NCBI RefSeq assembly: GCF_018736065.1
Contig: NZ_CP076128.1
Location: 3,077,501 to 3,141,500, forward strand
DNA from: Flammeovirga kamogawensis
Lineage (GTDB): Bacteria > Bacteroidota > Bacteroidia > Cytophagales > Flammeovirgaceae
Length of the DNA stretch: 64,000 nucleotides
Direction of reading: 5' to 3'
Each line of letters opens with the position of its first letter. Positions within the stretch are counted from its first letter, which is position 1. A model generated the notes under the pieces. It searched no databases. It was not told the DNA's origin and saw only the letters and a program-made list of their open reading frames with translations. A program made the position numbers and the translations under genes. Shown piece after piece: positions 47,366 to 64,000 of this stretch.

Positions 47366-48133
47366 ATGAAAGTAATATCATACAATGTTAATGGCATACG
47401 TGCTGCTATAAAAAAAGACTTACTAGAATGGGTTAAAGGTATTAACCCTGATGTTATTTGTCTTCAGGAAGTTAAAGCAAACGAAGAACAAGTTGATCTT
47501 GAAGGATTCAAGGCATTAGGATACAAATATGTTTATTGGCACTCTGCACAAAAAAAAGGTTACAGTGGGGTTGCAATTTTCTCTAAAGTAGAGGCAAAAT
47601 CTACTAAAATAGGCATGGGAATTGATGTATATGATGCTGAAGGTCGAACTATACTGTGTGAGTTCAAAGATTTTACCTTAGTAAATACTTACTTTCCTTC
47701 TGGGACATCTGGTGAAGAGAGACAAAAATTTAAATATAATTTCTTAGATGATTATTTTAAATACATCTCAAACCTAAAAACTGAATACAGTAATCTAGTT
47801 ATTTGTGGCGATTTTAATATTTGTCATAAGGCTATAGATATACACAACCCTGAGCGCAATAAAAACACTTCTGGTTTTCAGCCTGCTGAAAGAGAATGGG
47901 TTACTAAATTTATTACTGAAGGTGGTTTTGTAGATGCATTTAGAAAATTTGATGAAAGCCCAGGGAAATATAGCTGGTGGACATACCGTGCAGGAGCTAG
48001 AGGTAAAAACTTAGGATGGAGAATTGATTATTTTATGGTACAAGATACTTTTGCAGATCGTCTTACAAACTCGCTTCTGCATAATGACGCTTACCATTCA
48101 GATCACTGCCCTGTCGAAATTGACTTTAAATAA
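47366..48133 (+). CDS. xth: Exodeoxyribonuclease III
   Basis: A Mg-dependent AP endonuclease/3'-5' exonuclease of the Xth family, 255 residues, near the usual length. The EEP fold motifs are intact: ISYNVNGIRAA (N7), CLQEVKA with the metal-binding glutamate (about residue 34), GDFNICH (about 152-158), the AP-site loop WWTYRAGARGKNLGWRIDYF (about 202-221), and the terminal SDHCPVEID with the catalytic histidine. It functions in base excision repair. It is cotranscribed with the upstream 120-residue protein. Confidence 0.96.
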   Translation: MKVISYNVNGIRAAIKKDLLEWVKGINPDVICLQEVKANEEQVDLEGFKALGYKYVYWHSAQKKGYSGVAIFSKVEAKSTKIGMGIDVYDAEGRTILCEFKDFTLVNTYFPSGTSGEERQKFKYNFLDDYFKYISNLKTEYSNLVICGDFNICHKAIDIHNPERNKNTSGFQPAEREWVTKFITEGGFVDAFRKFDESPGKYSWWTYRAGARGKNLGWRIDYFMVQDTFADRLTNSLLHNDAYHSDHCPVEIDFK

Positions 48134-54446: not shown

Positions 54447-54462
54447 TGTTCCACGTAAAACA
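54447..54462 (+). other. parS-like site 1
   Basis: TGTTCCACGTAAAACA matches the parS consensus TGTTnCACGTGnAACA at all defined bases except one (G to A at position 11). It is also the left arm of a terminator stem. Confidence 0.5.
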
Positions 54463-54501
54463 TTTTCAATTTAATTGAGTGTTTCACGTGGAACTTTTTT
54501 T
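54448..54501 (+). terminator. Intrinsic terminator of the DUF4175-ybeY operon
   Basis: GTTCCACGTAAAACA pairs with TGTTTCACGTGGAAC (14 of 15) around a 17-base loop and is followed by TTTTTTT. The two arms coincide with parS-like sites 1 and 2. Confidence 0.75.
54480..54495 (+). other. parS-like site 2
   Basis: TGTTTCACGTGGAACT matches TGTTnCACGTGnAACA at every defined position but the last. Confidence 0.6.
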
Positions 54502-54542
54502 ATTATATGAAAACATTAAGTCTTTGATAATTTTTGATTTAT

Positions 54543-54550
54543 TATCTTTG
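54543..54550 (+). promoter_or_regulatory. mnmG promoter -7 element
   Basis: TATCTTTG matches TAnnTTTG; a TTTG lies 16 bases upstream at 54523-54526. Transcription would start near 54557, leaving an 85-base leader that contains parS-like site 3. Confidence 0.6.
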
Positions 54551-54608
54551 CAAATAATTACAGTTGACTTTAATCACTGTAAATCAGAAATCTGAAGAAA
54601 TTTACTTA

Positions 54609-54624
54609 CGTTCCACGTGGAACG
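54609..54624 (+). other. parS-like site 3 (perfect 16-bp palindrome)
   Basis: CGTTCCACGTGGAACG is fully self-complementary, and its central 14 bases match the parS consensus exactly. It lies in the leader of mnmG and has no part in the terminator. Confidence 0.65.
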
Positions 54625-54641
54625 AAAAAATAAAAAATAGA

Positions 54642-56516
54642 ATGTATCCATCTTATGACGTTATAGTAATTGGAGGAGGACATGCAGGCTGTGAAGCTGC
54701 TCATGCTGCCGCTACACTAGGATCTAGTGTTCTACTAATTACAATGAATATGCAAACTATAGCTCAAATGAGTTGTAACCCTGCAATGGGTGGTGTTGCC
54801 AAAGGACAGATCGTTAGAGAAATTGATGCTCTTGGTGGTATGTCAGGTATTGTGACTGATAAATCTATGATTCAATTTAGAATGTTGAATAGATCAAAAG
54901 GTCCTGCAATGTGGAGTCCAAGAGCACAAAGTGATCGAATGGTTTTCGCACAAGAATGGAGAGATACTTTAGAAGCAAATCTAAATGTAGATATATGGCA
55001 AGAAATGGCAACTGAAATTGTTATGGAAGGCGATAAAATTACTGGTGTAAAAACAAGTTTAGGCGTAGTTTTTAATACTAAATCTGTTGTTTTAACTAAT
55101 GGTACTTTCTTAAATGGACTTATTCATATTGGTGAAAAACAATTTGGAGGAGGACGTAGTGGTGAACATGCTGCTAAAGGATTAACTGAACAATTAGTAG
55201 GTTTAGGCTTTGAAGCAGGAAGAATGAAAACAGGAACTCCTCCAAGAGTAGATGGTCGTTCTTTAAATTGGGAAAAAATGCAAGAGCAAGCTGGAGATGA
55301 AAATCCAGAAAAATTCTCTTATTCAGATACTACTACCACTCTTACAAAACAAAGAAGCTGTTTCATTACTTATACTAGTAATGCAGTTCATGATGTTTTA
55401 AAAACTGGCTTTGATAGATCTCCAATGTTTAATGGAAGAATTCAAGGTTTAGGTCCTAGATATTGTCCTTCAATAGAAGATAAAATTAATCGTTTTGCAG
55501 AAAGAGATAGACATCAAATTTTTGTAGAACCTGAAGGTTGGAATACATGTGAAATGTATATCAATGGATTTTCAACATCATTACCTGAAGACGTACAATA
55601 CAAAGCACTTCGTAAAATTGAAGGTTTTGAAAACGCAAAAATGTTCCGTCCGGGTTATGCAATTGAATATGATTTCTTCCCTCCTACGCAATTAAAATCT
55701 ACCCTAGAAACTAAGCTTGTAGAAAACCTTTATTTTGCCGGACAGATAAACGGAACAACAGGTTATGAGGAAGCTGCATCTCAAGGCTTAATGGCAGGGA
55801 TTAATGCACATAATAAAATAAAGGAAAAAGAAGCATTTATCTTAAAAAGATCTGAAGCATATATTGGAGTTCTGATCGATGACCTTATCAATAAAGGTAC
55901 AGATGAACCTTACAGAATGTTTACTTCTAGAGCCGAATATAGAATTCTTTTAAGACAAGATAATGCAGATATAAGGTTAACTCAATTAGGCTACGATTTA
56001 GGACTTGCTTCTCAAGATAGATTTAATGCTGTTGAGAAAAAGAAAAAAGAAATTGATAATGTTGTAGAAACATTAAAAGAGACAAGTATTAAAGTTAACC
56101 ATGCAAACCCTCTTTTAAATGAAAGAGAACTGCAACCACTATCTCAAGGTATTAAAGCCAATCAATTTATAAAGCGCCCTCACGTAGATATTAATTTAAC
56201 TATGGAAGCTAACCCATCGCTTAAAGAAGCATTTAATGGGTATGGTGAAAAGGCACTAGAAGAAGCTGAAATTCTTTTAAAATATGAAAACTATATTGAG
56301 AAAGAACAAAAGCTTGCAGAGAAGTTAACTACACTAGAAAGTTATAAAATACCAGAAGGTTTTGACTTTAAATCAATCACTGCTTTATCGTCTGAATCAA
56401 GAGAAAAAATGACAAAAGTAGCTCCTTTAACTTTAGGACAAGCCTCTAGAATAAGTGGTGTTACACCTGCAGATGTTACAATATTGATGGTCTATTTAGA
56501 TAAGCAAAAAGTCTAA
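54642..56516 (+). CDS. mnmG: tRNA uridine-5-carboxymethylaminomethyl modification enzyme MnmG (GidA)
   Basis: FAD-dependent enzyme that, with MnmE, modifies U34 of certain tRNAs. I start it at MYPSYDVIVIGGGHAGCEAA (624 residues, family length about 625-630); a frame upstream adds 26 residues that span parS-like site 3 and do not look like the family. The FAD motif GGGHAGCEAA, MNMQTIAQMSCNPAMGG, GRMKTGTPPRVDGRS and the C-terminal helical domain (SREKMTKVAPLTLGQASRISGVTPADV in outline) are all present. In many bacteria this gene lies next to parAB and the chromosome origin. Confidence 0.97.
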   Translation: MYPSYDVIVIGGGHAGCEAAHAAATLGSSVLLITMNMQTIAQMSCNPAMGGVAKGQIVREIDALGGMSGIVTDKSMIQFRMLNRSKGPAMWSPRAQSDRMVFAQEWRDTLEANLNVDIWQEMATEIVMEGDKITGVKTSLGVVFNTKSVVLTNGTFLNGLIHIGEKQFGGGRSGEHAAKGLTEQLVGLGFEAGRMKTGTPPRVDGRSLNWEKMQEQAGDENPEKFSYSDTTTTLTKQRSCFITYTSNAVHDVLKTGFDRSPMFNGRIQGLGPRYCPSIEDKINRFAERDRHQIFVEPEGWNTCEMYINGFSTSLPEDVQYKALRKIEGFENAKMFRPGYAIEYDFFPPTQLKSTLETKLVENLYFAGQINGTTGYEEAASQGLMAGINAHNKIKEKEAFILKRSEAYIGVLIDDLINKGTDEPYRMFTSRAEYRILLRQDNADIRLTQLGYDLGLASQDRFNAVEKKKKEIDNVVETLKETSIKVNHANPLLNERELQPLSQGIKANQFIKRPHVDINLTMEANPSLKEAFNGYGEKALEEAEILLKYENYIEKEQKLAEKLTTLESYKIPEGFDFKSITALSSESREKMTKVAPLTLGQASRISGVTPADVTILMVYLDKQKV

Positions 56517-56659: not shown

Positions 56660-58414
56660 ATGAACTTATTTTTAAGAATCATTATCTCAATCTATATACT
56701 ATTTACAGTATATGCTTGTGCAGTTGTCTCCTCTCCTACAGGTGGTCCAAAAGATGAGATTCCTCCTAGGTTTGGAGCAAGTGATCCGTATAATGGACAA
56801 ACAAACGTTGATACAACCAAGTTAAAAGTAACACTTTACTTCGATGAATATATTCAAGAAGAAAAGCTTAAGCAGAACTTAATTATTACTCCATATAAGA
56901 AAACGTTTAGATATAAATCTAAGTTTGCTAGAAATAAAGTAATCATAAATATCTTAGATACTTTAGAACAAAACACTACTTACTTTTTTGATTTCGGAAA
57001 ATCTGTTGTAGATGTTACAGAGAAAAACCCTGCTAAAAATGTTCGTTTTTCTTTTAGTACTGGAGATTATTTAGACTCCTTAGAAGTGACTGGTCAAGTA
57101 AGAGATTTACTTACAAATGAGCCAATCGAAGGAGCAATAATAGCATTGTATGATCCTTATGATTCTCTTGATGTAAATACAGATCCTCCCGTTTATTTTT
57201 CTAGAACTGTAAAAGATGGTTTATTTATTCTAGAAAGATTTAAGCCAGGATACTATAATGTGTATTCTGTTGAAGATGCAAATGATGATTATAAATTTAC
57301 TTTAAGAGAAGAGAAAGTTGGCTTCTTTTCAGACTCTCTCCTACTCGATCAAAATATTGATGGTGTTCAACTGTTTGTTAGAGATTATGATTTAGTTGAT
57401 CTTGCTTTTAAAAATGTAAAAGCAGAAAGTACTGATCTACTTGTAAAGTTCAACAAGTTTGTTGTAGAATATGGAATTGATTTCCCAACTAAAAATACTT
57501 ATACAGATAGTATTTTTAGTATGGCTGAAAAAGGAGAAATTAAACTTATCTATACTGGTGAAAGAGACATGGAAGACTCTCTTCAAATTACTGGATATGC
57601 TATAGATTCTATAGAACAAAAAATTGAATTCGATACACTTATTATGTTCCCTAGTAAAAGTGAAGTTTTAGCTGAAGAAGAAAAACAAACTAAGAAAAAA
57701 GGTGGTGGACTTTTAGGCGGTGCAATTAATACAATCGGATCTGCATTAGGTGCTGAAGAAGAAGAAGAAGAAATTGTTAGAATTAAATTTGATAAAATTC
57801 TTCCAAAAGATAATGACCTTATTCCAGAAGAAACTTATGATGTTACTTTGAAGTTTCCGTTACCAATGAAAGAAATGAATATTGATAGTATGTACTACGT
57901 CTATAGTGAAGACACTACAAGATTAGACAGTATTCTTATTGATAGAGAAATGACTTTCAATTTTAATAAAACAGAATTAACTATTCCAGGTTTTGAAGTT
58001 GATTCTGCCTTCAGTCTTATTTTTAATGAGAACGCTTTTGTTTCAGTAAAAGAAGATTCTACAAATGCAAAGACAGTTAGCTTTACAATTAAGCAACTAG
58101 ATAAATACGGAATTGTAGAAGGAGAAGTAAAAGGAAGTCACGATAGTTTTATTGTCCAGTTAATAGACTCCAAAGCAGAAGTTGTTCAAGAAGTAAAAAA
58201 TGAACGCCTTTTTTCTTTCCATTATGTAAAACCAGGAACTTATCAACTTAGAGTATTAATTGATGAAAATGGAGATGGAGAATGGTTCCCTGGAGATTTT
58301 AAAACTAGAATACCTCCAGAACCAACGGCATTCTTCCCTAAGAAAATAAAAGTAGAAGCGAACTGGGAAATCAGAAGAGAAGAAACAATAATCAATACAG
58401 ATAAGAAGAGATAA
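56660..58414 (+). CDS. Ig-like (SbsA-type) domain lipoprotein
   Basis: A 584-residue lipoprotein with the lipobox TVYACAV (cysteine at residue 20). The mature N-terminus carries SSPTGGPKDEIPP, a signature of a widespread Bacteroidota lipoprotein family, followed by a Big_5/SbsA Ig-like domain (about 33-135, ending FSFSTGDY), a carboxypeptidase-regulatory-like domain (about 140-200) and further beta domains, with a polylysine/polyglutamate linker (about 335-375). Function unknown; it is probably attached to the outer membrane. It is the last gene before the DnaA-box region and has its own terminator. Confidence 0.88.
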   Translation: MNLFLRIIISIYILFTVYACAVVSSPTGGPKDEIPPRFGASDPYNGQTNVDTTKLKVTLYFDEYIQEEKLKQNLIITPYKKTFRYKSKFARNKVIINILDTLEQNTTYFFDFGKSVVDVTEKNPAKNVRFSFSTGDYLDSLEVTGQVRDLLTNEPIEGAIIALYDPYDSLDVNTDPPVYFSRTVKDGLFILERFKPGYYNVYSVEDANDDYKFTLREEKVGFFSDSLLLDQNIDGVQLFVRDYDLVDLAFKNVKAESTDLLVKFNKFVVEYGIDFPTKNTYTDSIFSMAEKGEIKLIYTGERDMEDSLQITGYAIDSIEQKIEFDTLIMFPSKSEVLAEEEKQTKKKGGGLLGGAINTIGSALGAEEEEEEIVRIKFDKILPKDNDLIPEETYDVTLKFPLPMKEMNIDSMYYVYSEDTTRLDSILIDREMTFNFNKTELTIPGFEVDSAFSLIFNENAFVSVKEDSTNAKTVSFTIKQLDKYGIVEGEVKGSHDSFIVQLIDSKAEVVQEVKNERLFSFHYVKPGTYQLRVLIDENGDGEWFPGDFKTRIPPEPTAFFPKKIKVEANWEIRREETIINTDKKR

Positions 58415-58436
58415 TGAATCAAATTTTTTAAATAGA

Positions 58437-58467
58437 TGAGTCAGTATGAAAATACTGACTTATTTTT
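58437..58467 (+). terminator. Intrinsic terminator before the DnaA-box region
   Basis: GTCAGTAT pairs with ATACTGAC around a four-base loop, then TTATTTTTT. Confidence 0.8.
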
Positions 58468-59621
58468 TGCTCTATTTTTTAATATGAGTTTAGATGTTGT
58501 GTTTATAAGTAATGGAAAATGTATAATTATTCATCAATTGTACACAATAGCGCTTTATAAATTAGTACTTATTCATATATGATTGTGAATAACATTTAAT
58601 TGATTAAAAATCCAGCATTTACATCTAATTATAAAATATGATTAATAACTAAAAATGCTGTTTATGCTCCATATAGGCTTGTTTTTAACATTTCAATGTA
58701 CTTATGGCTTTACGTAGTGTTATGGGCTATATTTCTTTAATTTTAATAGTTATAAACAATACTACTAACACACACTATAAAATTTTGTGGATAAAAGAGG
58801 TACTTATCAACAGACTTATCCACAAATTGACTATAAAGAGTAATATTCACTTAGATATACACATAAAATAAGAATAAATTGGCTGTTAATAACCATCTTA
58901 ACTAACTGATTATCTATTAATTATAGATCAAAATTAATTAAGATATACACATATAAACAAATACCCTATTCACATGCTGTGCGCAAATCAATTGTAAAAT
59001 CAAGAAATTGAAAGGGTCTTCACGATTACAAAAGTATAGAGCTACACAAAAAATTATCACTCTATAAATGAAAAAAGAAGGTGTTGAAAACTTTTAAAAA
59101 ATCGGTAATAATTTTGGCGCTAAATGGTCTATAATTAATCAAAGTGTGTAACTTAATAGAGAAAGTAAAAGTTATTCACTAAAATTATATCAAACGGATA
59201 AATTTTTGTACAATTATTAGATATCAACGTTAGTTATTCACATAATTCACACATATAATAGCTAAAATTGTGATTAGTTGATAAAATGTTGAAAAGGTGT
59301 GGATATTATCAACAGTAATTCACAATTAGTACTTATTCACGCTATTCACATAGGTGTTAATAAGTGGATGTGGGTAAAAAGGGCGCTTGCGCACAGTAAA
59401 ACTAACGGAATAACTTTAATCAACTTATACATAATCATACTGTTGAAAAGCGCCATAAAACACTGTTTTTAGGTATGTTATGCAGTGAATAGTTATTAGA
59501 TCAATTTGTTTGTAAGTAGTAAAAAGCTGTTAGTAAGCCGAGTTATCAACTTATAAACACCCCTAATAACAATAAAAGGAATTTTAAATTTTTATTTTTT
59601 TATTATCTATTAGAAAGTGAA
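58468..59621. other. oriC: Putative chromosomal replication origin (DnaA-box cluster)
   Basis: A 1.15 kb stretch without genes. It contains four perfect DnaA boxes (TTATnCACA): 58584-58592 (-), 58786-58794 (-), 58816-58824 (+), 59234-59242 (+). At least nine more boxes differ at one base: 58569-58577, 58966-58974, 59172-59180, 59243-59251, 59298-59306, 59316-59324, 59333-59341, 59342-59350 and 59425-59433. They are densest at 59172-59433. Very AT-rich segments, such as 59060-59130, could serve as the unwinding element. The region is bounded by a terminator on the left and lies 4 kb from mnmG with parS-like sites, as expected near an origin. No GC-skew analysis was possible. Confidence 0.7.
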
Positions 59622-61469
59622 ATGTTGAAAACCGTACTTAGACAAAATTCGAGATTGCTTATTCTCTCTCTTTTCTTTTTGGTAGGTATCCCTGTTCAAA
59701 AAAGTATTGGACAAAATAAAACAGAAGAGAAACTAAATCTGGCTCAGGAATATTATAAAACAGAAGAGTTTGATAAAGCACTAGAGTTATATCGTGATTT
59801 ATCAAAGAATAAAAATCTTATACCAAACATCCATGAAAACTATCTGAACATTCTTTTAAATAAAGAAGAATATAAAGAAGCTGATAAATATTTAAAGAAG
59901 GTTGTGAAGAGTAATCCACAAAACGCTATTTACAATGTTGATTACACAAGAGTAAAACTTTTAGAAAAAGATACAGCTGCTGCAGATAAATCTATTGATA
60001 CGTTTATTCATCAAGTTGCTAACAATACCACCAAATTACGCTACTGTGCTTTGTACTGTATAGATCTTAGATTATTTGCATATGCTGAGAAATGTTACAG
60101 AACTGGTGAGAAAAATAGTGATGAAATATTTTATTATGAATTGGCAGACCTTTACGCTAACTGGGGTAAATATGATTTGATGATAGATGAGTACATGAAA
60201 CTTCTTTTAATCAAACCAGACCAATTAGAGTATGTGCAGATGGCACTTCAAGACAGACTGCTAACAGAAGAAGACTTTGATCTTTTAGAACCTAAGCTCC
60301 TCACGCTTGTTCAGAAGAACTCTAGCATGACTGTGTTTAATGAGATGATCGTTTGGTACTACTTACAGCAGAAGAAGTTTTACGGGGCATTTGTGCAAGC
60401 TAGAGCGTTAGATAAGAGATTAAGATTAGAAGGTTATAAGATTTTAGAGATTGGGCGTTTAGCAAAAAATAATGCTGATTATAAAAATGCATCTAAAATA
60501 TTCCAATACTTGGTAGATAGATACAAAGAATATGCTGTGTATCCAGTTGCAAGAAAATATCTAATAGAAACAAAAGAATCTATTGTAAAAAGTACCTACC
60601 CTATTGATAAAGATCAAATTCATTCACTTGTCAACGATTATCAACAAATTATTGATGAAATGGGGATAACTGATCAAACTGGAGAGGCTTTAAGAAACAT
60701 GGCATTACTACAAGCTTTCTATTTAGATGAAAAGGACGAGGCAATTGTAGAATTAAAAGAACTTATCAACAATCGATCTATTCCGAAGAGTTTAATTTCT
60801 CAAGCAAAACTAGATTTAGGCGATATCTATCTTTTAAAAAACGATCCATGGGAAGCTTCATTACTTTATTCACAAGTATCTAAAGCGAATAAAGAAATGA
60901 AAATAGGACACATAGCTAAATTAAAAAATGCGAAGATCTATTACTATACAGGTGATTTTAAATTAGCTCAGTCACAATTAGATGTTTTAAAGCTTGCTAC
61001 ATCTAGAACGATTAGTAATGATGCAATTGCTTTATCTATGTTGATAAGTGATAATTTAAACTTGGATACTACATCTTTTGCAATGGAAGCGTATGCTGAA
61101 GTTGATTTGTTGATATTTCAAGGAAAATACATAGAAGCATTAGAAAGTTATGAACAAATGTTAGTAGACTTTAAAGGACATAGTCTTACAGATGAAATTC
61201 TTTGGGAAAAAGCACATTTGTTGATAAAATTGGGGAAATATGAAGAAGCATTAGAACCTTTGAAAGAAATTCTCGAGTTTTACGGTGAAGATATTCTGGC
61301 GGATGATGCAAACTATTTGATAGGAACAATCTATCAGGATAATCTGAATGATAAAACTGAGGCAATGGAATACTTTAAAAATCACCTCATAGATTTTAAA
61401 GGTTCAAGTTATGAAGTTGATGCTCGAAAGAGATTTAGACAACTTAGAGGCGATAATGTGAATAAATAA
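59622..61469 (+). CDS. Secreted tetratricopeptide repeat protein
   Basis: A 615-residue periplasmic protein. Residues 1-31 are a signal peptide (LLILSLFFLVGIPVQ, ending SIGQ). The rest is a long array of TPR-like helix pairs, with typical consensus segments near 33-62 (AQEYYKTEEFDKALELYRDL), 330-370 and 500-590 (LEEALEPLKEILEFYGEDILADDANYLIGTIY in outline). Such proteins act as scaffolds in the envelope, but no partner is suggested here. It lies between the two DnaA-box groups. A perfect DnaA-box match (61457-61465) falls inside its 3' end, possibly by chance. Confidence 0.88.
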   Translation: MLKTVLRQNSRLLILSLFFLVGIPVQKSIGQNKTEEKLNLAQEYYKTEEFDKALELYRDLSKNKNLIPNIHENYLNILLNKEEYKEADKYLKKVVKSNPQNAIYNVDYTRVKLLEKDTAAADKSIDTFIHQVANNTTKLRYCALYCIDLRLFAYAEKCYRTGEKNSDEIFYYELADLYANWGKYDLMIDEYMKLLLIKPDQLEYVQMALQDRLLTEEDFDLLEPKLLTLVQKNSSMTVFNEMIVWYYLQQKKFYGAFVQARALDKRLRLEGYKILEIGRLAKNNADYKNASKIFQYLVDRYKEYAVYPVARKYLIETKESIVKSTYPIDKDQIHSLVNDYQQIIDEMGITDQTGEALRNMALLQAFYLDEKDEAIVELKELINNRSIPKSLISQAKLDLGDIYLLKNDPWEASLLYSQVSKANKEMKIGHIAKLKNAKIYYYTGDFKLAQSQLDVLKLATSRTISNDAIALSMLISDNLNLDTTSFAMEAYAEVDLLIFQGKYIEALESYEQMLVDFKGHSLTDEILWEKAHLLIKLGKYEEALEPLKEILEFYGEDILADDANYLIGTIYQDNLNDKTEAMEYFKNHLIDFKGSSYEVDARKRFRQLRGDNVNK

Positions 61470-61602
61470 TAGAAAATAGCTTTTTATTAAAATGTTATCC
61501 CCATAAATGTTTAAAAGTTTTTAAAAATAAGACATTTCAGAATGTTATTAACTTATAAACATCCTATTCACTAATAAATCAAGAAGTTATACTTAAAATA
61601 TT

Positions 61603-61653
61603 AAAAGTTATCAACAGTTAATCAGTTTAATTGTTGATAACTTTTCTTTTTTT
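61603..61653 (+). terminator. Intrinsic terminator of the TPR gene
   Basis: AAAAGTTATCAACA pairs perfectly with TGTTGATAACTTTT around a 15-base loop, then CTTTTTTT. Confidence 0.88.
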
Positions 61654-61720
61654 ACCTAATAATCAACCTATCAATGGTTAGTAAATTGATTTTATTTTAG
61701 ATTTTTAGAAATTTGTCAAC

Positions 61721-61758
61721 AAAAAAGGCTGAATACAATTGAGTATTCAGCCTTTTTT
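61721..61758. terminator. Bidirectional intrinsic terminator
   Basis: AAAAAGGCTGAATAC pairs with GTATTCAGCCTTTTT around a short loop; A-run and T-run on both sides. It is the terminator of the minus-strand methyltransferase gene and a second barrier for the TPR transcript. Confidence 0.9.
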
Positions 61759-61774
61759 GTGCATAAAATATGGA

Positions 61775-62548
61775 TTATTGCTTCTGGACAACAAAAATCA
61801 TCCTATCAGATTTCTCTCTATCGAATAAATTCAAGTTATAATCCCCAAAAGTGTTGATAACTTTGAGATTTACGCTTTCAAATAGCTTTAAAAAGTCTTT
61901 ATTCTTTAAAGCTTCTACTCTTTCTGTGAATAAATAGTCTTTTCCATCTGCTGAAAATGCAATTTCTTTCATTACATGTCGATTTTTTAAATACTTATGC
62001 ACATTAAAATCCATTTCAGGTCGTTTAATCACTAATTTTTCAGGTAAACTATTTATAACCTTATAAGTATTGAAATAGTCTAAAACAAAATAGCCATTAT
62101 GTTTTAAGCTGTTGGCTATCATTTTTAAAGCTAAAAGATCTTCTTCTTCAGTTTCAAAATAACCAAAACTAGTAAATAGATTTAATATAAAAGTAAACTC
62201 TTCCTTTTTGTAGAGCTCTCTCATATCATGTGTTGAAAACTTTAGCTTTTCGTTCTCAAATTGCTTAGCATGTTGAATACTTTCTGTTGAAAGGTCTATT
62301 CCCTCTACATTAAAGCCAAGTTTATTCAGAAAAATTGCATGTCGACCTTTTCCGCACGCTAAATCTAAAACTTTATCAACATTGGATATATTTAAATGAT
62401 TCGAAAGCTTTTTTACAAAAGTTTCAGCCTCTTTAAAGTCTCTGTTCTGGTATAAGATGTGATAATATGGTGTATTGAACCACTGATCGAACCATTCTTC
62501 ACCCTTTTGCATTTTATTCACTACTTTTTGTTTATCTATAATGAACAA
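61775..62548 (-). CDS. Class I SAM-dependent methyltransferase
   Basis: A 257-residue cytoplasmic methyltransferase. The SAM-binding motif I VLDLACGKGRHAIFL (about 62-76), motif II-like VEGIDLS (about 82-88) and the post-motif GYFVLDYF (about 152-159) are present. The N-terminus EEWFDQWFNTPYYHILYQNRD is common in a Bacteroidota subfamily. The substrate is unknown. It is the only minus-strand gene on the right side of the putative origin and lies between the two DnaA-box groups. Confidence 0.9.
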   Translation of the reverse strand: MFIIDKQKVVNKMQKGEEWFDQWFNTPYYHILYQNRDFKEAETFVKKLSNHLNISNVDKVLDLACGKGRHAIFLNKLGFNVEGIDLSTESIQHAKQFENEKLKFSTHDMRELYKKEEFTFILNLFTSFGYFETEEEDLLALKMIANSLKHNGYFVLDYFNTYKVINSLPEKLVIKRPEMDFNVHKYLKNRHVMKEIAFSADGKDYLFTERVEALKNKDFLKLFESVNLKVINTFGDYNLNLFDREKSDRMIFVVQKQ

Positions 62549-62862
62549 CCATTAACTTTGTGGTTGGTTTGAATAAATGTAAGTGCAAAGTATACTTTTC
62601 ATTTATATACATCAAAACTATTTTCAATACTGTGCATAAGTTTCTGAAAATTGATGAATTTTTTTATGATTTATCGATTTTCAAAAAGTTATCAACATTT
62701 TTAGGTTTATTATGTGAATAACTTTGATTTAGATGAAGTAAATCATCTGTTATTCAGTGTAAAAGGGTTGTGAATAACCACTTCAAATTGATTAACTTTG
62801 CAGCGACTTATCGTCAGTATATAAGAGTAATATAGGCCAATAAGAAATTTTGAGACAAATTC
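62549..62862. other. Second DnaA-box group upstream of metG
   Basis: In this 314-base gap three perfect DnaA boxes occur, all on the minus strand: 62631-62639 (TGTGCATAA), 62713-62721 and 62769-62777 (both TGTGAATAA). The last touches the upstream part of the metG promoter. The region may be a second part of the origin or a DnaA-controlled promoter region. Confidence 0.55.
62793..62800 (+). promoter_or_regulatory. metG promoter -7 element
   Basis: TAACTTTG matches TAnnTTTG, 62 bases before the metG start, with GTTG at 62767-62770 as a possible -33 element that overlaps a DnaA box. Confidence 0.6.
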
Positions 62863-64000
62863 ATGTCAAAGCATTATAATAGATATACAGTAACTGCGGC
62901 ATTGCCGTATGCAAATGGTCCTTTACATATCGGACATATTGCAGGTGCGTATTTACCAGCAGATATTTACGTTAGATCATTACGTCAGAAAGGAAAAGAT
63001 GTAGCATTTATTTGTGGAAGTGATGAGCACGGTGCTGCAATCACTATTCGTGCACAAAAAGATGGTATCACTCCTCAAGATATTATTGATAAGTACAATA
63101 AGAATATCAGAGAGACTTTTGAGAATTTTGGTATTTCTTTTGATTTATTCCACAGAACTTCTGCGCCTATTCATCATGAAACAGCACAAGATTTCTTTAA
63201 GGTTTTAAATGATAAAGGACAATTTGAATTAAAAGAGTCTTCTCAATATTATGATGAAGAAGCAAAACAATTCTTAGCGGATAGATACATTACAGGTACT
63301 TGCCCTAAATGTGGAAACGAAGGTGCTTATGGAGATCAGTGTGAGAAATGTGGTTCAGCGTTAAGTCCAACAGATTTAATTGATCCTAAATCTCAAATTA
63401 CTGGTGCTACTCCTACTTTAAAAACTACTCGCCACTGGTATTTACCAATGAACAAACACGAAGATTGGCTTCGTGAGTGGATTGTAGATGGTAAGTTAGA
63501 TGGTAGACAACACCATAATCCTAGTGAATGGAAAAATTCTGTTTTAGGACAATGTAAATCTTGGTTAGATCAAGGGTTACAACCTAGAGCTATGACTAGG
63601 GACCTAGACTGGGGAGTGAAAGTTCCAGTTGAAGGTGCAGATGGCAAAGTTTTATATGTTTGGTTAGATGCTCCAATTGGCTATATTTCAGCTACAAAAG
63701 ATTGGGCAGCTAAAGAAGGTAAAAACTGGGAAGATTATTGGAAAAAAGCTGATACTAAGCTAGTTCACTTTATTGGAAAAGACAATATTGTTTTCCACTG
63801 TTTAATATTCCCTATTTTATTAAAGGCACATGGCGAAGGGTATATCTTACCAGATAACGTTCCTGCAAATGAGTTTTTAAATTTAGAAGGTGCTAAGTTA
63901 TCAACATCTCGTAATTGGGCTGTTTGGTTACACGAGTATTTAGAAGAGCTTCCTGGTAGAGAAGATGAATTACGTTATGTATTAACATCAATAGCTCCAG
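62863..64000 (+). CDS. metG: Methionyl-tRNA synthetase, N-terminal part (runs off the right edge)
   Basis: Class I aminoacyl-tRNA synthetase charging tRNA-Met; the first 379 codons are present and the frame is still open at the window end (full length in the family is about 680). The HIGH motif is H22-IGH25 in [20 protein letters not shown] follows, then a zinc knuckle with C147, C150, C160 and C163. The KMSKS loop reads K345-LSTS, as I recall for Bacteroidota MetRS. The start is supported by the promoter at 62793 and by the familiar N-terminus [14 protein letters not shown]. Confidence 0.97.

Follow-up and report, generated by a model that had tools for sequence, protein, structure and literature searches.

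The window under study is a stretch of 64,000 nt of the Flammeovirga kamogawensis genome (GCF_018736065.1), corresponding to positions 3077501–3141500 of contig C1 (NZ_CP076128.1), which at 4.67 Mb is the largest of four contigs (the others having 1.61, 0.64 and 0.05 Mb); coordinates are those of the window, unless preceded by C1 or C2. At its left edge a piece of 16S rRNA gene lies on the minus strand, so that the rRNA operon is transcribed away from the region of interest, as the initial annotation had it. Further to the right the genes follow in the order ybeY (PF02130), mnmG, a gene for an Ig-like/DUF2141 protein, a gap, a gene for a TPR-repeat protein, one for a methyltransferase-domain protein and a gene which, from its first residues, we take to be metG. 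The mnmG (gidA) gene, a frequent neighbour of bacterial origins, was found by its PF01134 match in the plus-strand ORF 54564–56516, with a probable start at ATG 54642 as judged by eye from the translation. The gap lies between the upstream gene, whose stop is at 58414, and the TPR gene, which starts at 59622; it is 74% A+T, and the ORF list contains no ORF of at least 70 aa between 58415 and 59621. The TPR gene (59622–61469, plus strand), which adjoins a box cluster in much of the order, and the methyltransferase-domain gene (61775–62548, minus strand, assigned by domain search) both carry extra DnaA boxes, as inferred from the box scan.

The gene-free gap (58415–59621) carries a dense DnaA-box array, with 4 perfect and 20 one-mismatch boxes, and on the basis of box scanning, shuffles and conservation it is the candidate core of a chromosomal replication origin, oriC. 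The perfect boxes TTATNCACA are at 58584 and 58786 on the minus strand and at 58816 and 59234 on the plus strand. The initial annotation had counted these four correctly; its figure of at least nine one-mismatch boxes was an undercount, and the eight perfect boxes it gave for 58.5–62.8 kb become 12 in our scan. Dinucleotide shuffles of 58468–59621 contain on average 0.14 perfect and 3.0 one-mismatch boxes, and none of 1000 reaches either of the observed counts; over the whole field (58415–62870), 12 perfect and 39 one-mismatch boxes are found against shuffle means of 0.36 and 8.2. Over the genome as a whole the perfect box shows hardly any enrichment, with 382 occurrences in 6.97 Mb as compared to 347 for the reversed control pattern. 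As own-genome background we used 40 stretches from all four contigs (800 kb, with a 2.5-kb overlap between two of them; 15,120 windows of 1150 bp), in which the maxima per 1150-bp window are 3 perfect boxes and 11 at up to one mismatch, the gap having 4 and 24. In the rest of the window (counted in 1150-bp windows whose start is to the left of 56.5 kb) these maxima are 1 and 7, the latter at 47801. An equal box density elsewhere, which by the initial annotation would have spoken against an origin if seen in other intergenic regions, was not encountered in these 800 kb.

Several boxes are kept in position among the nine aligned Flammeovirga genomes; the relatives of this genus that are known by name are F. 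aprica, F. pacifica and strains SJP92, OC4 and EKP202. The box at 58584 is perfect in 9/9, and a head-to-tail pair on the plus strand at 59234–59251 (TTATTCACA, TAATTCACA) is a perfect pair in most relatives: the first box is perfect in eight of the nine and the second in seven, both having at most one mismatch in all nine. The sequence TTATCAACA at 58804 differs from the consensus by one mismatch, is shared unchanged by all nine genomes and may be a genuine box variant of the Flammeovirga lineage. It recurs at 59306, at 61.6–61.9 kb around the right-hand box field described below, and in a distant cluster at 3.213 Mb of C1. Between 59162 and 59560, 9 of 12 boxes are on the plus strand and lead into a pair of tandem boxes at the right edge of the gap.

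It is at this edge, outside the densest box stretch, that we place the likely strand-opening site, narrowed from sequence features to 59543–59621. The putative element starts with overlapping tandem boxes on the plus strand, identified by alignment and rule (TTATCAACT and TTATAAACA, with 2 and 1 mismatches, 59543–59559), followed by a CCC spacer and a DnaA-trio-like repeat, CTA ATA ACA ATA, with one of four triplets off (59560–59574, plus strand, identified by rule and profile), and by an AT-rich tract (59575–59621), a putative unwinding element on account of its composition and stability, so that the layout reads TTATCAAC-TTATAAACA-CCC-CTAATAACAATAA-AT-rich. The segment 59560–59621, directly beside the boxes, is 82% A+T. 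The AT-rich tract is among the least stable 1% of the 60-bp spots of the window, yet it is not the least stable, and neither in the gap nor in the window is position 59563 the weakest spot; stability as sole pointer to the opening site was rejected, as other spots are weaker. The definition of the basal unwinding system comprises a box, a spacer of at most 16 bp and at least three consecutive NAN trios. The spacer is here 3 bp, and at 59563–59574 two consecutive trios are followed by one that is off (ACA). All four trios fit in the Flammeovirga genomes G006, G009 and G003, and likewise in G016, G001 and G017; due to the single ACA, three consecutive trios are present in some relatives and not strictly in the window. 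A loose trio finder (a box plus four or more NTN) was dropped, as it does not discriminate in AT-rich DNA, and for this reason a stricter opening-element rule was made. This rule, composed post hoc after viewing the sequences of the relatives, matches the window exactly once, at 59551. With a gapped profile, for which 15 family sequences served as the training set, the window element scores 33.5 and the runner-up in the own-genome stretches 13.1.

Alignment of the gap shows that the box array and the opening element are kept in all nine Flammeovirga genomes, and that the 110 bp directly preceding the TPR gene are among the best-conserved parts, as is the stretch 59.31–59.41 kb. Other genera have the same layout in different letters, G016 for example having ATATCCACA-CTACTACTATTACTA. 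Of 17 family regions upstream of the TPR gene, 13 have a forward-strand match to the post hoc rule (9/9 Flammeovirga, plus G016, G011, G001 and G017); there are also two reverse-strand matches in the family loci (G005, G001) and one match in 509,332 strand-bases of flanking sequence. It fails in G002 and G013, both of which look similar by eye, and in G014 and G015. The G014 genome is without a box cluster at the family locus, and its parS pair is on another contig with neither mnmG nor a box cluster in the 20 kb surrounding it.

The analysis was extended to the order by running the same profile on 20 genomes from 11 other families, chosen by us among the 69 of 79 searched order genomes which have a match to the TPR protein. 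A box cluster precedes the TPR gene in 12 of these 20, with 6 to 27 boxes in 0.9–1.25 kb; the remaining eight have 0 to 2 boxes and no convincing element at the TPR gene. In G081, 25 perfect DnaA boxes occur within 900 bp before this gene, which is exceptionally dense. In all 12 cluster genomes the best profile match is on the plus strand, 88–295 bp before the TPR match. Of 1000 shuffles, none scores as high in G081, G082, G032 and G025, two do in G021 and five in G069 and G062; the matches in the other five (G031, G034, G026, G068, G070) are weak, 20 to 51 shuffles scoring as high. A weak match at −166 (149 of 1000 shuffles) is also found in G088, which has only one box there, so that position alone is no proof. 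The stricter rule has forward matches in only two of the 20 genomes (G069, G062) and reverse matches in three (G081, G070, G025).

The initial annotation had also placed parS-like sites near the candidate origin, and three such palindromes, at up to three mismatches from TGTTCCACGTGGAACA, are present at 54447, 54480 and 54609 in the ybeY–mnmG interval (54447–54624), about 5 kb from the putative origin. Genome-wide, six sites are within two mismatches of this consensus as compared to two for the reversed control; four of the six are on C1, three of them at 3.132 Mb and one at 3.213 Mb. Another consensus, GTTTCACGTGAAAC, has 10 sites at up to two mismatches versus 25 for its reversed control, and as such single sites are no better than the control, the weight rests on the parS cluster and its conservation. 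Indeed, a parS-like site is present at the start of mnmG in all 15 fetched family loci that include this gene. The genome has one ParB_N match, on C1, and thereby combines parS-like sites near the putative origin with a gene for ParB.

The site at 3.213 Mb, which is the closest parS match of the genome, is itself surrounded by a second box cluster, mostly of TTATCAACA (C1:3212.7–3214.6 kb, 76 kb from oriC). This arrangement also occurs in the near relative G006 and is absent at the other cobC-like loci inspected; it is perhaps a satellite parS with DnaA titration.

GC skew was sampled along C1, with distant samples of 20 kb in addition to a contiguous 480 kb. Negative values prevail between about 0.8 and 3.12 Mb, and positive ones from about 3.2 Mb past the contig end to 0.7 Mb, six distant samples being discordant (0.3, 0.5, 1.1, 1.5, 2.0 and 3.6 Mb). 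The antipode of position 59551 is at 803 kb, and the cumulative skew sampled over 0.70–0.86 Mb peaks at about 0.76–0.79 Mb, so that the skew change has its opposite about half-way round the replicon. Within the contiguous 480 kb the minimum is broad, with −5080 near 3.13 Mb and a deeper value of −5298 near 3.17 Mb; when the steps are made finer, the left minimum falls at about 46 kb of the window, some 13 kb left of the cluster, in a region with no more than 7 boxes in any 1150-bp window. The skew minimum alone therefore fails to pick the box cluster, which has local minima about 13 kb to its left and 33 kb to its right, and the cumulative-skew check proposed earlier agrees with an origin here at the scale of the replicon, as sampled, without pinpointing the cluster. 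To the right of oriC, a run of minus-strand genes (C1:3.148–3.169 Mb) encodes LamG proteins (2983 and 1048 aa) that carry Por-secretion-tail domains, and small proteins with Phage-collar domains; it disturbs the local skew and makes the second minimum. In Flammeovirga G010, a flip located between 5.02 and 0.30 Mb agrees with 9/9 samples, the locus being inside at 0.105 Mb, and in G013, from another genus, 9 of 11 samples fit a flip at 7.12–7.35 Mb with the locus inside at 7.22 Mb, the exceptions being at 1.0 and 5.8 Mb.

The box field extends from the gap to the right only, through the two protein-coding genes as far as metG (to 62.8 kb). This right-hand field (59622–62870), comprising the TPR gene, a small gap, the methyltransferase gene and a further gap before metG, contains eight additional perfect boxes; the part from 61470 to 62870 has 6 perfect and 11 one-mismatch boxes, above all 1000 shuffles. 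We have counted boxes at up to one mismatch by zone in 11 genomes (nine Flammeovirga, G016 and G017): per kb there are 0.3–1.5 to the left of the gap, 8.1–21.1 in the gap, 1.6–6.7 in the TPR gene, 5.2–9.1 in the methyltransferase gene, 0.9–25.6 in the two small gaps and 0.9–2.3 from metG on (in G017 counted from the end of the methyltransferase gene). Synonymous-codon shuffles (200 per gene) were made for nine of the 11 genomes, excluding G008 and G009. In eight of nine genomes no more than 10 of 200 shuffles reach the box count of the TPR gene (90 of 200 in G010), and in 9/9 no more than 17 of 200 reach that of the methyltransferase gene; for control genes (mnmG, the Ig-like gene, metG and DUF4175; 27 tests) it is 31 of 200 or more in every case. 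These counts suggest selection for boxes within the two coding genes, a reading that stops short of proof as the relatives are not independent and the values for single genes are modest.

The genome has one dnaA family match, at C1:2134557, 1.0 Mb from the box cluster, so the earlier statement that dnaA is outside the window holds and the cluster has no dnaA neighbour. The C-terminal domain of DnaA aligns with domain IV of the E. coli protein (1j1v) and keeps the FGGRDH stretch, which fits the use of the standard box. The protein has 673 aa, is encoded on the minus strand and has a Q/N-rich linker, about 200 residues long, that joins the N-terminal part to the ATPase part. On the other replicon, C2, the skew changes sign near 1.08–1.10 Mb, where genes for a Rep_3 initiator and a ParA-like protein are found, as well as a parS-like site. 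The Rep_3 region is without a box cluster, no 1150-bp window containing more than 5 boxes, from which it follows that the DnaA-box origin belongs to the main chromosome. The parS-like site of C2 (1082335), near the skew change, is of the chromosomal type and lies 4.6–5.9 kb from the Rep_3 gene (1086954–1088150), a pairing also seen in G006, G003, G005 and G010 (5/5 looked at, own genome included). As the single ParB_N match is on C1, one ParB may serve both replicons.

Considering box density, skew change, adjacency to mnmG and parS and conservation in relatives, all of which support the initial proposal, we are highly confident that the gap is oriC of the 4.67-Mb main chromosome. An arrangement in which replication starts in the right-hand field (61.4–62.9 kb, before metG), the left cluster being accessory, would account for the fact that 8 of the 12 perfect boxes lie to the right of 59.6 kb and that the counts there exceed all shuffles; nevertheless, it is very unlikely, as the only match to the opening-element rule is in the gap, as G005 and G010 have only 0–2 boxes in the small gaps but keep the left array, and as it is upstream of the TPR gene that the cluster is found in 12 of 20 order genomes. 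A chance origin of the boxes, or their derivation from an AT-rich composition, is suggested by the 74% A+T of the gap and has a negligible probability, since neither dinucleotide shuffles nor 800 kb of own genome reproduce the box density and the boxes are kept in position across nine genomes.

Scarcely credible, too, is an origin elsewhere on C1. The cumulative skew is slightly lower near 3.17 Mb; however, the minus-strand run at 3.148–3.169 Mb, whose two largest genes encode the LamG/secretion-tail proteins, can shift the skew locally and has at most 5 boxes (up to one mismatch) per 1150 bp. The cluster at 3.213 Mb reaches 11 boxes per 1150 bp around the closest parS match, but among 20 inspected loci of its neighbour gene it is found only in G006, whereas the oriC locus is family-wide. 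Both positions were rejected, the former for its local gene-strand skew and lack of a box cluster, the latter as common to G006 only. We attribute the same slight probability to a DnaA-titration or regulatory site (datA-like) instead of an origin: a long, spread-out box field that continues within genes is what such a site might look like, and yet the skew change, parS and opening element coincide at this cluster, and nothing denser occurs in the sampled 800 kb, which are part of the genome.

With the gap taken as oriC, DnaA supplied from a gene 1 Mb away would bind the dense left array (58.58–59.56 kb), and its filament would grow from the tandem boxes at 59543–59559 onto one strand of the trinucleotide repeat (59563–59574) and open the AT-rich tract up to 59621. 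The helicase would be loaded at the opened tract and two forks would leave, while ParB bound to the parS cluster by mnmG would mark the new origins for segregation. The sparser right field (59.6–62.8 kb) probably tunes initiation: the origin could be split, with this field as its second half, or the field could be a local DnaA reservoir.

In B. subtilis oriC adjoins dnaA, and its origin is, as in Helicobacter pylori, split (bipartite). Such origins, with two box arrays separated by coding sequence, resemble the arrangement described here, with the difference that in F. kamogawensis boxes also occur inside the separating genes, and that these are not dnaA. The putative opening element resembles the basal unwinding system of B. 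subtilis, for which predictions exist in 1755 of 2070 species (PMC8287927): tandem boxes, a short C-rich spacer, a trinucleotide repeat and an AT-rich tract are common to both, whereas the repeat of the window is interrupted once and the origin is apart from dnaA. Bacteroidota origins have been located by a parS cluster and GC skew, for example in Bacteroides caecimuris (PMC10197239), which likewise has its parS cluster near the skew flip; that organism is from another class, and box or opening-element anatomy is absent from the passages of that paper drawn on here. According to these passages, from a study including Bacteroidota, the origin is not always tied to dnaA, and a neighbouring dnaA is for this reason not required in the phylum; there is thus precedent for origins which lie apart from dnaA and are recognizable by parS and skew. 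In two-chromosome Flammeovirga, dnaA and dnaN are reported only on chromosome I, and homologues of ParA, ParB and RepA on chromosome II (Feng 2021, PMC8653839, in the parts drawn on here), unlike F. kamogawensis with its one ParB_N match on C1. The term 'oriC' does not occur in the main text of that study, and a literature search in titles and abstracts found no description of a Flammeovirga oriC; an automatic prediction in origin databases may exist.

The origin is thus placed for a multi-replicon genus, with a likely opening site down to about 80 bp. Its wide tie to one TPR gene is a less ordinary feature: the neighbour-gene rule, by which the origin lies directly before this gene, fitted 12 of 20 chosen genomes from other families of the order, and together with the placement of the origin it could aid the building of replicating vectors and the orientation of draft genomes. 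What is odd in an otherwise ordinary origin is that its box field continues inside two coding genes. We tentatively consider, as a possibility somewhat short of even, that in Flammeovirga and two neighbouring genera a box array of about 3 kb, on one side only, is written into the TPR and methyltransferase genes and kept there by synonymous-codon selection, which would give these genes a second role as DNA to which the initiator binds. If functional, this would be an initiator-binding array that shapes codon choice.
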